Assembly (NCBI RefSeq): GCF_017726655.1
Contig: NZ_CP072308.1
Coordinates: 310,001-374,000 of the forward strand
From: Agrobacterium tumefaciens
Lineage (GTDB): Bacteria; Pseudomonadota; Alphaproteobacteria; Rhizobiales; Rhizobiaceae
Length of the DNA: 64,000 nucleotides
Direction: 5' to 3'
Part shown: piece by piece, positions 28,020 to 33,353 of the stretch
Layout: every line of letters begins with the position of its first letter
Numbering within the stretch: the stretch's first letter is position 1
Translations under genes and position numbers: made by a program
The notes under the pieces: generated by a model
Databases searched by the model: none
The model's input: only the letters and a program-made list of their open reading frames with translations
What the model was told of the DNA's origin: nothing

Positions 28020-28682
28020 ATGCTTAGACGATTCCTGCGGCGTATTTTGTCGCCACGCGCATTCCTCGTTGCTTTATTCCTCGTCATCGCCGCGACCTCT
28101 GCGGCCGCCTATGCGCTCCTGCCTCCACCAACACCCGCAGCAACCGAAACGGCCACCGTTAAGATCGTCGTCAACGACGGCCACGGTTCCGGCGTCCATA
28201 TCGGCGACGGCTTTATAGTCACTGCTGCGCACGTCGTCGGCGACGCGAAAGAAGTCCAGCTAAAGGCGAAAGGTGGCCCTCTTCGCAAGGCCGATGTCCT
28301 TTGGATCAACAAAGCCAATGACATTGCACTGCTGCGCACGTCGTCGGACGGCCTCGGCGTCGCAAAACTGGCCTGCCACGCTGTGAATGTTGGCGATCCT
28401 ATCGTTGCTTACGGCAATCCTCTGAAAATCGAATTCGTTGCCGCATACGGAAAGATCGCTGGCGAGTCCCGCGAAACAGGTCCTTGGAAATCGGTCTATG
28501 TGACAGACATCACAACTGTGATGGGCCAGTCAGGCGGACCCGTCTACGCAGACAACGGCGACCTGATCGGCATCACTGTTGGCGTCATGGCTGCGCCTAT
28601 TGGCTTCTCAGGCTCGCTGGTTGGCTATGGCTATGTCGTGCCTTCGACTGCGGTTTGTGAGTTGCTGGGGAGGGTGGGGTGA
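28020..28682 (+). CDS. Trypsin-like serine protease, membrane-anchored
   Basis: The 220-residue protein has an N-terminal basic region and membrane span (FLVALFLVIAATSAAAYALL, residues 15-34), then a trypsin-fold domain with the catalytic triad H71 (TAAHVVG), D101 (NDIALL) and S171 (GQSGGPV). There is no PDZ domain. It likely acts in the periplasm or is released after cleavage. The ATG at 28020 follows a gagggg site; a longer in-frame start at 27942 lacks one. Related proteases occur in other rhizobial prophages, but the target is unknown. Confidence 0.88.
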   Translation: MLRRFLRRILSPRAFLVALFLVIAATSAAAYALLPPPTPAATETATVKIVVNDGHGSGVHIGDGFIVTAAHVVGDAKEVQLKAKGGPLRKADVLWINKANDIALLRTSSDGLGVAKLACHAVNVGDPIVAYGNPLKIEFVAAYGKIAGESRETGPWKSVYVTDITTVMGQSGGPVYADNGDLIGITVGVMAAPIGFSGSLVGYGYVVPSTAVCELLGRVG

Positions 28683-28864
28683 AGCGGAGAGAAGTCGAGC
28701 AGCAGCTGCGCCTGATGGAGCATTGCAGACACCTGTCTTACGAGGCAGAGACGAAGCGAGAGGAGGCTCGCCTCATAAGGCAATACAACATGATGTGGCG
28801 CGCGATAAAGCCGTACGTCGAAGGAAAGAAGCCATACAGCGACGAAGCGCCAACTCTCCTTTAA
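28679..28864 (+). CDS. Small charged helical protein, unknown
   Basis: The 61-residue product is basic and helical (KRREVEQQLRLMEHCRHLSY). Its GTG start overlaps the protease stop (GTGA), so the pair is coupled. Function unknown. Confidence 0.6.
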   Translation: MKRREVEQQLRLMEHCRHLSYEAETKREEARLIRQYNMMWRAIKPYVEGKKPYSDEAPTLL

Positions 28865-28917
28865 CTTTTCCACGGCCGCCCACCAAGCGGCCTTCACCAC
28901 CACATCGAGGAGACTGC

Positions 28918-30153
28918 ATGCCTCTACCCATAGAAGAACTACGCCGAAGAGCCGACGCCTACAAAGAGCACGGCACGCTGAAGAAGGCCGCCGCTGCACT
29001 AGGCATCAAGAAGTCTGCGCTCTCTGAAAGCATACGCCGAGCCGCTGAGGTTGGCCTTCTCGGCACGGAGCCTGTCCTGCCTGGCTTCCGCATCAGCAAG
29101 ATCAGCAACACGCCGAGCGGCACGTTCATTCAGCAGACGCAAGAGCGAGGCGAGCGCTTTGAAGTGCCTGCCGGCCACGTCGTCAAAGGCGTGTCTGCGC
29201 TCGTCGATGCTGAAGGGCGCGTTATCCAGCAGTGGCAGAAGACGGCGGTGGAGCAATCGCCGGTCGATGTTGCCGCCATACTCAAAGAGGCATTTCATGA
29301 CGTTCAACCCGCCGAGCCTGTCGCCGTTCCGGCACAGGTTTACGATGATCTGTTGACGCTGACGCCACTTGCAGACTGGCATATCGGTCTTTTCTCATGG
29401 CATCGCGAGACAGACACGAATTGGGATTTGAAGATCGCGGAAAGCGTCATCGGCTCTGCGATTGAAGACCTAATCGCGCGAACGCCCCCATCCGCCAACG
29501 CTATCGTCTTAGGTGGCGGAGACCTGCTCCACTCGGACAACAACGAGAACAAGACAGCGCGGTCTGGCAACGTTCTTCAGGTCGATGGGCGTTACCAGAA
29601 GGTGCTGATGACAGCATGCCGCCTAGTCGTTCGCTCGATCGATGCCAGCCTCAAGCGCCACGGCCACGTCACCGTCCGCATCCTGCCCGGCAACCATGAT
29701 GAGCATGCCTCGGTAGCTGTCGCGTACTTTCTCCTCGCTTGGTATCGCAATGAGCCGAGAGTGACAGTTGACGTAGACCCGTCGCTGTTCTTCTGGTTCC
29801 GTTTCGGCAAGGTGATGATTGGCGCCACCCATGGTCACACGGTCAAGCTCAAAGACATGGCGAGCATCATGGCACACCGCCGTGCCGAAGACTGGGGCGC
29901 AACTCGCCACCGCTTCGTCCACGGCTTCCACATCCACCACTCGAGTAAGTTTGCGTCCGAGGGCGGCGGGGTGATTTCGGAATCGCACCAGACGCCGACG
30001 CCGCAGGATGCGTGGCACTTTGGCTCGGGCTTCCTGTCTGGCCGGTCGATGCAGTCGATCAGCTACCACAAGGAGTACGGCGAAGTTTCGCGCGTCCGCG
30101 TGGCGATGATGGATGCCGCGAATGATAATGAGCAGGTGAGGGCGGCGTCTTAA
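28918..30153 (+). CDS. HTH domain + metallophosphoesterase
   Basis: This 411-residue protein joins an N-terminal helix-turn-helix (residues 8-42, HGTLKKAAAALGIKKSALSE) to a calcineurin-like phosphoesterase. Metal-ligand motifs appear in order: LADWHIG, GGGDLLHSDNNEN, LPGNHDEHA, GATHGHT and HGFHIHHSS. This layout is seen in rhizobial phages. It may act on nucleic acid or nucleotides with the HTH guiding it. The C terminus (DAANDNEQVRAAS) resembles the alphaproteobacterial ssrA tag. The ATG at 28918 has gaggaga upstream; longer starts overlap the preceding small gene. Confidence 0.88.
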   Translation: MPLPIEELRRRADAYKEHGTLKKAAAALGIKKSALSESIRRAAEVGLLGTEPVLPGFRISKISNTPSGTFIQQTQERGERFEVPAGHVVKGVSALVDAEGRVIQQWQKTAVEQSPVDVAAILKEAFHDVQPAEPVAVPAQVYDDLLTLTPLADWHIGLFSWHRETDTNWDLKIAESVIGSAIEDLIARTPPSANAIVLGGGDLLHSDNNENKTARSGNVLQVDGRYQKVLMTACRLVVRSIDASLKRHGHVTVRILPGNHDEHASVAVAYFLLAWYRNEPRVTVDVDPSLFFWFRFGKVMIGATHGHTVKLKDMASIMAHRRAEDWGATRHRFVHGFHIHHSSKFASEGGGVISESHQTPTPQDAWHFGSGFLSGRSMQSISYHKEYGEVSRVRVAMMDAANDNEQVRAAS

Positions 30154-30157
30154 ATAT

Positions 30158-30247
30158 TGGCGGGGGGAGCGGGATTCGAACCCGCGCTACCCTTACGGGC
30201 AGGATCGATTTTCAATCGACTGCCTTCAACCACTCGGCCACCCCCGT
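30158..30247 (-). tRNA. Class II tRNA-like gene: serine-type body, GAA (Phe) anticodon
   Basis: The reverse strand folds as a tRNA with encoded CCA. The D arm reads GGCCGAGTGGTTGAAGGC as in tRNA-Ser, the variable arm is long (TGCCC-GTAA-GGGTA), the T arm is GCGGG-TTCGAAT-CCCGC and the discriminator is G, all serine features. The anticodon stem is GTCGA/TCGAT with the seven-base loop TTGAAAA, so the anticodon is GAA (Phe). The top two acceptor pairs (A1-C72, C2-C71) do not match. It could be a phage tRNA, a missense-type tRNA or a decayed copy. Confidence 0.7.
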
Positions 30248-30364
30248 CGTCCGAAATATCTGGGTCGTTGCTGCGGAGGTTTCAAGTCAGACTTTCGGTA
30301 AAAATGTCCACCTACCGCCAGCGACCAACTGGCGGTGAACCACCACACCACTGAGGAGATGAGA

Positions 30365-31258
30365 ATGGGTTCAGTTACCAGAGAATTAGCGCGACGCAGG
30401 ATCGATAAGCTCCTGAACGAGACGAGGGCCGAGGTCGGCGTCGCCACCACCACCACCACCTTTGGCCCGCTCGACAAGTACGTGGCCGCGAATGACAACG
30501 TGCCGCAGCCCAACGACAAGCTGCGGCGGCTCTTAAAAAGCCAGCTGACCGACGACGAGAAAGTCGAACTCGACGAAGCGATGTTTGCGGCGCCCATTAA
30601 AACCGCGATTGCAAAAGAATGGAATGGCGATGGACCGAAGGAGTGGGTGGAAGGGCATTTGATTCCCGACTGCAACGACCCTGCATCGCGCGGCGTGTTT
30701 GTGCCCGCCGAACCACCCCGCGCCGGCGACTTCATGCAGACCTTCACCGGTCGCAAATACTGGCCGATGTCTCCGAGACCGCACGAAGTCTACATCGAAG
30801 ACATCGCCCATTCGCTCGGCCTGCAATGCCGCTACGCAGGGCACTGCATCAAGTTCTACAGCGTCGCCGAACATTCAGTTCTGATTGCCCGTCACCTTGC
30901 AGCCAAGCACGCGCCGGAGGTGGCTTTGGCTGGCCTTCTGCACGATGCGCCCGAAGCATACTGCGTGGACATTCCACGCCCTCTCAAGCCGTACCTGACG
31001 AACTATCGTGCGATCGAGCAAGACAACTGGCTGGCTGTTGCTGCTCGGTTTGGTTTGCCGAAAGAGTTGCCGCGCGAGGTGCATGACGCCGACAACCGCA
31101 TCATCGCCGATGAGCTGGTGAATCTGCGCGAGATGCCGTGGCACGCGCGCTACGCCGGCAAAGAACTTGGCGTGAAACTGCGGTATTGGTCGGCGGAGGA
31201 GGCGGAGCTTGAGTTCCTGGCGACGTTTGATGCGTTGATGGCGGGGAGGGCGGCTTGA
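30365..31258 (+). CDS. HD-domain phosphohydrolase (YfbR-like)
   Basis: The 297-residue protein has a C-terminal HD domain with metal-binding histidines and aspartates in RYAGHCIKFYSVAEHSVLIA, LAGLLHDAPEAY and VHDADNRIIADE. This matches phage HD proteins related to 5'-deoxynucleotidases. The first 100 or so residues are unfamiliar and include AANDN. The ATG at 30365 has gaggagatg upstream. With the dNMP kinase downstream it suggests nucleotide pool control during phage replication. Confidence 0.85.
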   Translation: MGSVTRELARRRIDKLLNETRAEVGVATTTTTFGPLDKYVAANDNVPQPNDKLRRLLKSQLTDDEKVELDEAMFAAPIKTAIAKEWNGDGPKEWVEGHLIPDCNDPASRGVFVPAEPPRAGDFMQTFTGRKYWPMSPRPHEVYIEDIAHSLGLQCRYAGHCIKFYSVAEHSVLIARHLAAKHAPEVALAGLLHDAPEAYCVDIPRPLKPYLTNYRAIEQDNWLAVAARFGLPKELPREVHDADNRIIADELVNLREMPWHARYAGKELGVKLRYWSAEEAELEFLATFDALMAGRAA

Positions 31259-33276: not shown

Positions 33277-33353
33277 TGGCGACCCCTGCAGGACTCGAAC
33301 CTGCGACCTACTGCTTAGAAGGCAGTTGCTCTATCCAGTTGAGCTAAGGGGCC
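33277..33353 (-). tRNA. tRNA-Arg (UCU), probable prophage attachment site
   Basis: A complete 77-base tRNA with encoded CCA. Acceptor GGCCCCT pairs with AGGGGTC (one G-U), the anticodon loop is CTTCTAA (anticodon TCT) and the T arm is GCAGG-TTCGAGT-CCTGC. Its 3' end faces the prophage, the usual orientation for integration at a tRNA 3' end. Confidence 0.95.

Follow-up and report, generated by a model that had tools for sequence, protein, structure and literature searches.

A serine-type class II tRNA-like gene with a phenylalanine (GAA) anticodon, located in a prophage of Agrobacterium tumefaciens, is very probably one member of a distinct family of RNA genes that occur singly in scattered prophages. 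When viral contigs were scanned by pattern and E. coli genomes were searched, 23 distinct sequences were collected, the copy described here included (alignment A2), 17 with the anticodon GAU and six with GAA. To judge from their sequences, these RNAs probably serve a function other than ordinary translation. The region analysed, termed the window, is a stretch of 64,000 nucleotides (C1:310001-374000) of a 5.08 Mb genome that comprises two contigs.

Fold, anticodon and acceptor end of the RNA gene

ARAGORN identifies a 90-nt tRNA on the minus strand of the window at 30158-30247 and names it tRNA-Phe(GAA). The Rfam tRNA model scores this gene at 45.7 bits (E = 1.5e-6 within the window), whereas the three further tRNAs in the window reach 67.8-78.6 bits. 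The original prediction of a serine-type body that combines a GAA anticodon with an open acceptor top was upheld by the ARAGORN call and the Rfam alignment, and neither of them shifts the anticodon to UGA, an outcome against which the prediction was to be checked. The family alignment agrees with the Ser-type class II assignment, and the gene encodes its CCA end.

The anticodon (30211-30213, minus strand) is placed by ARAGORN and the family alignment in the seven-nucleotide loop UUGAAAA (30209-30215), which is closed by the stem GUCGA/UCGAU with one G.U pair. The long variable arm (30186-30203, minus strand) has its own stem in the family alignment, where this helix (helix 4) covaries. Stem, loop, stemmed variable arm and the discriminator G73 are thus all as first described. 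According to the Rfam alignment and the family pairing counts, A1 and C2 at the acceptor 5' end (30246-30247, minus strand) and their 3' partners C71 and C72 (30162-30163, minus strand) are unpaired in the canonical register: neither A1.C72 nor C2.C71 forms, and the 3' end reads G73-CCA. The RNAfold minimum adopts a shifted acceptor register (C2-G73, G3-C72 etc.; z = -2.3), and the acceptor end modelled in this way could close non-canonically. Thg1-type repair of the mismatched 5' end was considered and rejected, as the host genome contains no PF04446 match.

Of the features of a tRNA-Ser, the class II fold, the long variable arm and the Ser-type D arm are all present; a Ser anticodon (NGA, GCU or ACU) is absent, and so, in the canonical register, is a 7-bp acceptor stem in which 1-72 and 2-71 pair. 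The features of tRNA-Phe or tRNA-Ile (class I, short variable loop, A73) are not found either, given the long variable arm and G73. The tRNA-Phe(GAA) of the host is a class I molecule with A73.

Prophage setting

The location of the gene in a prophage, also part of the original prediction, was confirmed. The prophage spans 60.5 kb. Its two ends are marked by copies, at C1:282851 and C1:343277, of a 45-bp sequence from the 3' part of tRNA-Arg(TCT) in direct orientation, and among its genes are those for terminase, portal, protease, capsid, tail and lysis proteins. At the right prophage end the 45-bp att core (33277-33321 of the window, minus strand) lies inside the host tRNA-Arg(TCT) gene (33277-33353) and forms the direct repeat with C1:282851. 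Just left of the window the prophage carries an initiator-type tRNA-Met(CAT) (L071:6857-6933, equivalent to G000:C1:308857-308933) with C1 opposite A72, whose sequence differs from the four other copies in the genome, which are identical to one another. Elsewhere in the genome, a damaged tRNA-Ser(CGA) copy (L005:1452-1537, equivalent to G000:C2:14060-14145; Rfam 30.7 bits) shares its 3' part with the intact gene and is perhaps the scar of an integrated element.

The RNA gene is flanked by two phage genes on the opposite strand. At lower window coordinates lies a DNA repair exonuclease gene (28579-30153, plus strand; phrog_704, E = 2e-103; start codon uncertain), which ends 4 nt from the RNA gene, and on the other side a deoxyribonucleoside 5'-monophosphate phosphatase gene (30335-31258, plus strand; phrog_318, E = 9.7e-64). 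The space 3' of the exonuclease gene (window 30154-30334; L072-L120) is a variable insertion place with several contents, some of them common to a few relatives. Among 49 exonuclease loci (41 viral, 8 genomic), L080 and L113 (A. rosae) are the two in which ARAGORN finds the tRNA in this slot, and their copies are identical over the compared stretch; the L098 contig stops short of the slot. The closest three of the eight relatives of the exonuclease gene in named genomes are from Agrobacterium (90-94%). In the same slot, G027, a genome of the same genus whose 3,090-base locus lies entirely within Agrobacterium rosae NCPPB 1650 sequence, carries an RNA gene with equal acceptor letters (ACGGGGG / CCCCCCG-CCA), another variable arm and the anticodon GAU.

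Membership and distribution of the family

Scans of the viral contigs by acceptor end gave four loci for the 5' end and six for the 3' end. Both ends occur in L121-L124, and the remaining two 3'-end loci are ordinary Ser tRNAs at the match. Two exact patterns with the TTGAAAA loop gave no match in the viral contigs; the relatives found afterwards carry GAU, or GAA with different surrounding letters. A scan for the Ser D arm plus the loop YYGAWA returned 22 loci, comprising 17 of the family, three of one closed-acceptor GAT sequence and two that are not tRNA. The relaxed scan gave 34 loci, hence 35 rows with the window. Seven rows with a closed acceptor and/or a broken anticodon stem were dropped (L222, L223, L229, L230, L233, L234 and L235), six exact duplicates were removed, and the E. 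coli copy was then added to give the 23 sequences of A2.

CCA is encoded in five of the 23, the window and L121-L124 among them; CAA or CAT takes its place in five and something else in 13. The discriminator base is G in 10, T in eight, A in four and C in one. Four of the dropped rows (L229, L233, L234 and L235) are Ser-like RNAs in which, read in this register, the anticodon stem forms poorly when a 7-nt loop is assumed, and possibly have enlarged anticodon loops.

The search of 5426 complete E. coli genomes found the element in 11, with the annotation tRNA-Ile in each. It lies in a 191-bp cassette that is identical in the 11 genomes, with flanks that differ among the three examined. A near-mode search of E. 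coli genomes with the L142 element gave no match. The element was found in 2 of 39 genomes sampled from the genus and 1 of 397 from the order; the phylum sample gave two matches in 398 genomes, one of which (G684) has no tRNA at the match. No pattern match occurred in 295 genomes from the order of G468. Because the pattern used for the phylum and the G468 order misses the E. coli form, the prevalence is underestimated. Plasmids contained no match to the window element. Among viral contigs, matches to Enterococcus phage DNA cover 11% of L131 and matches to Serratia phage DNA 13% of L142; L136 has SraC/SdsR at its contig end and is therefore of enterobacterial origin.

A blastn search of INPHARED returned 375 records with the window element and 44 with that of L124; the five records examined all have ordinary Ser anticodons, GCT or ACT. 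The L240 element matches five records, from Rhizobium phages and annotated as tRNA-Ser, and the L144 and L231 elements match none. In Rfam, the 13 elements tested matched no family except tRNA at gathering scores. In a tree built from the tRNA bodies of the 23 family members and 44 other rows, based on few columns, the 23 do not group together. The best tree has six changes, of which at least two are forced by well-supported branches, but a single clade for the 23 is not rejected (p-AU 0.33). On these sequence comparisons, repeated origin from tRNA-Ser is possible, as is a single one.

Covariation and the open acceptor top

In A2, 92.0% of the cloverleaf cells are paired, a figure that falls to 45-47% when the partner is slid by one column. 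Compensatory cells, in which both sides have changed, number 151 compared with 43.4 in shuffled alignments, and none of 500 shuffles reached as high a count. Pairing is complete in the D and T helices (100%), nearly so in the anticodon (98.3%) and variable arm (94.9%) helices, and lowest in the acceptor (75.8%). The Ser body, that is the D arm, long variable arm, T arm and elbow, is under selection by the measure of these substitutions. Decay, which the original prediction had entertained, is contradicted: its features recur in 23 distinct sequences, with the D, anticodon, variable and T stems kept by compensatory changes.

The deficit of the acceptor is confined to its top. All 23 sequences form the four pairs 4-69 to 7-66, and 16 form pair 3-70. 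Pair 2-71 forms in five, four of them as G.U and one as a Watson-Crick pair, and pair 1-72 in nine, all G.U; the absence of any Watson-Crick pair (0/23) at 1-72 is partly a product of row selection. The letters that open the acceptor vary among members, and therefore the opening itself is conserved rather than a sequence. A shifted register (C2-G73) closes the end with six pairs in seven of the 23, the window included.

Since rows of A2 were removed partly on an acceptor feature, a scan blind to anticodon and acceptor is the fairer test. It required the Ser D arm and T arm and a base other than C at position 74, left the anticodon free, and gave 80 rows with 51 distinct sequences. The acceptor end is open in all nine distinct GAU/GAA sequences, compared with one (L170) of the 42 others (Fisher 3.3e-9). 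The only other non-Ser anticodon seen is a CTT in a single row (L210) with a broken anticodon stem.

Exceptions to the open acceptor exist. L230 has GAA, one stem mismatch, a closed acceptor and CCA, and its anticodon stem is no worse than that of L227, which was retained; it is a fair counter-example to the open-acceptor rule. L139, L141 and L145 share one sequence, a Ser-type RNA with GAT, a closed acceptor, CCA, the T loop UCCGAAU and a long variable arm. It lies outside the relaxed scan because of its T arm, and ARAGORN does not call the L139 RNA as a tRNA. Five sequences were folded singly: the E. coli copy (with an open top) and the host tRNA-Ser(GGA) fold as cloverleaves, the window copy takes the shifted acceptor described above, the D arm of L121 is altered, and L131 lacks the T arm in its fold (z = -0.7).

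Gene-like features

For 22 members, 42 flanking ORFs of 110 aa or more were scored, and 38 of them run opposite to the RNA gene (binomial 5.7e-8), compared with 21 of 78 for the 42 other Ser-type sequences from the same scans. A terminator-like hairpin with a T-rich tract occurs within 60 nt downstream in 14 of the 23 members at p <= 0.015; in 11 of the 14 it begins no more than 2 nt from the tRNA. For L123 the value is 0.045, and no such hairpin lies within 60 nt downstream of the window copy. The antisense placement and the hairpins rather suggest, from sequence, that these RNAs are transcribed on their own.

Promoter-like sites at a fixed distance reach p < 0.05 in five of 23 members, the window included, and the combined p of 0.002 comes from rows that are partly related; the family promoter signal is accordingly suggestive only. 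The candidate sigma-70-like promoter in the window (30255-30285, minus strand; p 0.010 against 300 shuffles) consists of TTGAAA (30280-30285) and GATATT (30255-30260) separated by a long spacing of 19 nt, and ends 7 nt before the tRNA start. L135, L136 and L240 have in common a perfect inverted repeat, CCTTGCTTGCAAGG, a few bases upstream of the RNA start, which could be an operator.

The 20 flanking proteins tested include terminase/portal, amidase with a tail protein, a replication initiator, a DNA methyltransferase, an integrase and PAPS reductase. As the neighbours differ among members, there is no fixed protein partner. The RNA gene resembles a moron in being an extra gene that occupies varying places and is absent from close relatives.

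Proposed function and alternatives

SerRS recognises the long variable arm of its tRNA and not the anticodon. The family keeps the body that such a protein would bind and, as a rule, lacks an encoded CCA, a constant discriminator base, the top acceptor pairs and a Ser anticodon, a combination that fits tRNA-Ser-like binding without use. We propose that temperate phages carry a stand-alone RNA gene, a moron set against the direction of the neighbouring genes, which would be transcribed on its own in lysogens. The product would be a tRNA-Ser mimic in which the Ser body is kept and both adaptor ends are altered, one by the GAU or GAA anticodon and the other by an abnormally paired acceptor top, usually with no encoded CCA. 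Such a mimic would presumably be poorly charged or used, and might occupy a tRNA-Ser-recognising protein, as decoy or competitor. Candidate targets are seryl-tRNA synthetase and a tRNA-Ser-directed nucleotidyltransferase defence toxin of the AbiEii/MenT3 type; with a toxin as target, the gene would serve in counter-defence or exclusion. MenT3, a member of the AbiEii abortive-infection family, is reported to have a preference for tRNA-Ser (PMC10435456).

A decoy mechanism for a tRNA-Ser-binding protein is the reading we favour, tentatively, at somewhat less than even probability. The decoy named among the options of the original prediction comes close to this hypothesis. Against a decoy stand the CCA retained in the window group, the six-pair shifted register open to seven of the 23, the closed-acceptor GAU/GAA sequences (L139/L141/L145 and L230), the weak promoter signal, the missing terminator of the window copy and the failure of the 23 to group in the body tree, and a simple decoy gives no reason for the strict choice of GAU or GAA or for the YYGAWAM loop. 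The wider proposal is possible but doubtful, namely a protein-free exclusion or counter-defence RNA in temperate phages, those of Alphaproteobacteria and Gammaproteobacteria and probably also of Firmicutes, in which an acceptor-disabled tRNA-Ser mimic with an Ile or Phe anticodon would block a tRNA-Ser-specific enzyme or toxin.

Several other functions were weighed against the decoy. An attenuated missense tRNA, weakly charged by SerRS, would place serine at a low level at Ile (AUU/AUC) or Phe (UUU/UUC) codons, for example as a stress signal or as a means of crippling a superinfecting phage. The retained Ser body, an anticodon that SerRS can dispense with and the CCA encoded in the window and L121-L124 agree with this, and the open acceptor could lower the level of charging. 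Missense activity, as originally suggested, is nevertheless a poor fit and unlikely: CCA is unencoded in 18 of 23 members, including the five with CAA or CAT, the discriminator varies, and the acceptor is opened with letters that vary among members, although a CCA-adding enzyme could restore the end in some of the 18. E. coli SerRS uses the top acceptor pairs, and it is these that are lost. Further missense anticodons would also be expected, but the blind scan saw GAU and GAA alone. Another candidate role is that of a base-pairing small RNA on a tRNA scaffold, with the loop YYGAWAM as the seed for a common mRNA or RNA target. G34, A35 and A37 are invariant columns of A2 while the stems covary, terminator-like hairpins accompany 14 of 23 members, and no protein partner is constant; however, it is hard to see what target of a 7-nt loop distant hosts would share, and so conserved a Ser architecture would not be needed; we consider this role quite improbable. 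An element for RNA processing or transcription punctuation, with a fold cut by RNase P/Z or blocking antisense transcription, would suit a gene that is usually the sole tRNA found in its locus, sits between operon genes and adjoins terminator-like hairpins in those same 14 members. Because the gene is mostly opposite to the operon, however, the operon transcript would carry only its complement; the constraint on the anticodon is left unexplained, and we regard such an element as very unlikely.

A decaying copy of a captured host tRNA-Ser would agree with the Rfam results, in which 13 members score 39-50 bits, compared with 52-79 bits for other host-genome tRNAs (the damaged copy aside). A pseudogene loses pairing without compensation, which the covariation of A2 contradicts with no shuffle in 500 as high, and the same anticodon and acceptor changes recur across different phages, so that this origin is highly improbable. 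Some phage tRNAs substitute for a host tRNA broken by integration, as PMC10865867 describes, and a replacement tRNA for such tRNA-dependent lysogeny, or one for codon supply, was also considered. The 45-bp core rebuilds tRNA-Arg(TCT) whole and the isotype is mismatched, and tRNA-dependent lysogeny was rejected. The host has tRNA-Phe(GAA) and tRNA-Ser with CGA, GGA, UGA and GCU, and therefore nothing is missing for the gene to supply; the probability of a replacement role is close to nil.

Relation to known systems

Allo-tRNAs are Ser-type RNAs with non-Ser anticodons and an 8/4 or 9/3 acceptor branch. The present RNAs resemble them in pairing a Ser-type body with a non-Ser anticodon; Allo-tRNAs, however, have an extended acceptor, whereas here there are a 5-bp T stem, four to five firm canonical acceptor pairs and an open top. 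With the five T-stem pairs 100% paired and acceptor pairs 4-7 present in all 23 members, assignment as an Allo-tRNA with a 12-bp acceptor branch was rejected. The C4-type RNAs of P1 and P4 are small prophage regulatory RNAs made in lysogens. The family shares with them its small size and prophage origin, and differs in its cloverleaf; we know of no tRNA cloverleaf in C4-type RNAs.

Phage-encoded tRNAs are described in two reports as resisting or replacing tRNAs cut by host anticodon nucleases (PMC10264068; PMC11555353). The likeness to the present genes lies in phage-borne tRNA genes for which counter-defence is proposed, with altered anticodon loops in PMC10264068. Those tRNAs work in translation according to the abstracts, whereas here isotype and anticodon conflict, the acceptor is abnormal and the genes are single and mostly antisense. 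Lysogeny that depends on a phage tRNA likewise involves tRNA genes of temperate phages, but there, as described in PMC10865867, a broken tRNA is replaced; here the host tRNA is intact and the isotype differs. The AbiEii/MenT toxins (PMC10435456) are proteins, unlike this RNA, and enter only as a proposed natural target.

A search of the open-licence literature on the element itself, its possible targets and counter-defence found no description of the family among the papers listed, and the available parts of reports on Pas small RNAs (PMC13192938) and on phage tRNA counts (PMC13015707) do not describe it. If a function can be demonstrated, the family has a fair chance of meriting separate classification.

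Implications

Annotation as plain tRNA-Ile or tRNA-Phe, by ARAGORN and in RefSeq E. coli genomes, hides what seems to be a distinct RNA family. If its members are decoys, they would let prophages interfere, by RNA alone, with enzymes or defences directed at tRNA, and would indicate a bacterial conflict specific to tRNA-Ser. If they are charged instead, they would be natural tRNAs for Ser-for-Ile or Ser-for-Phe mistranslation, which would be equally surprising.
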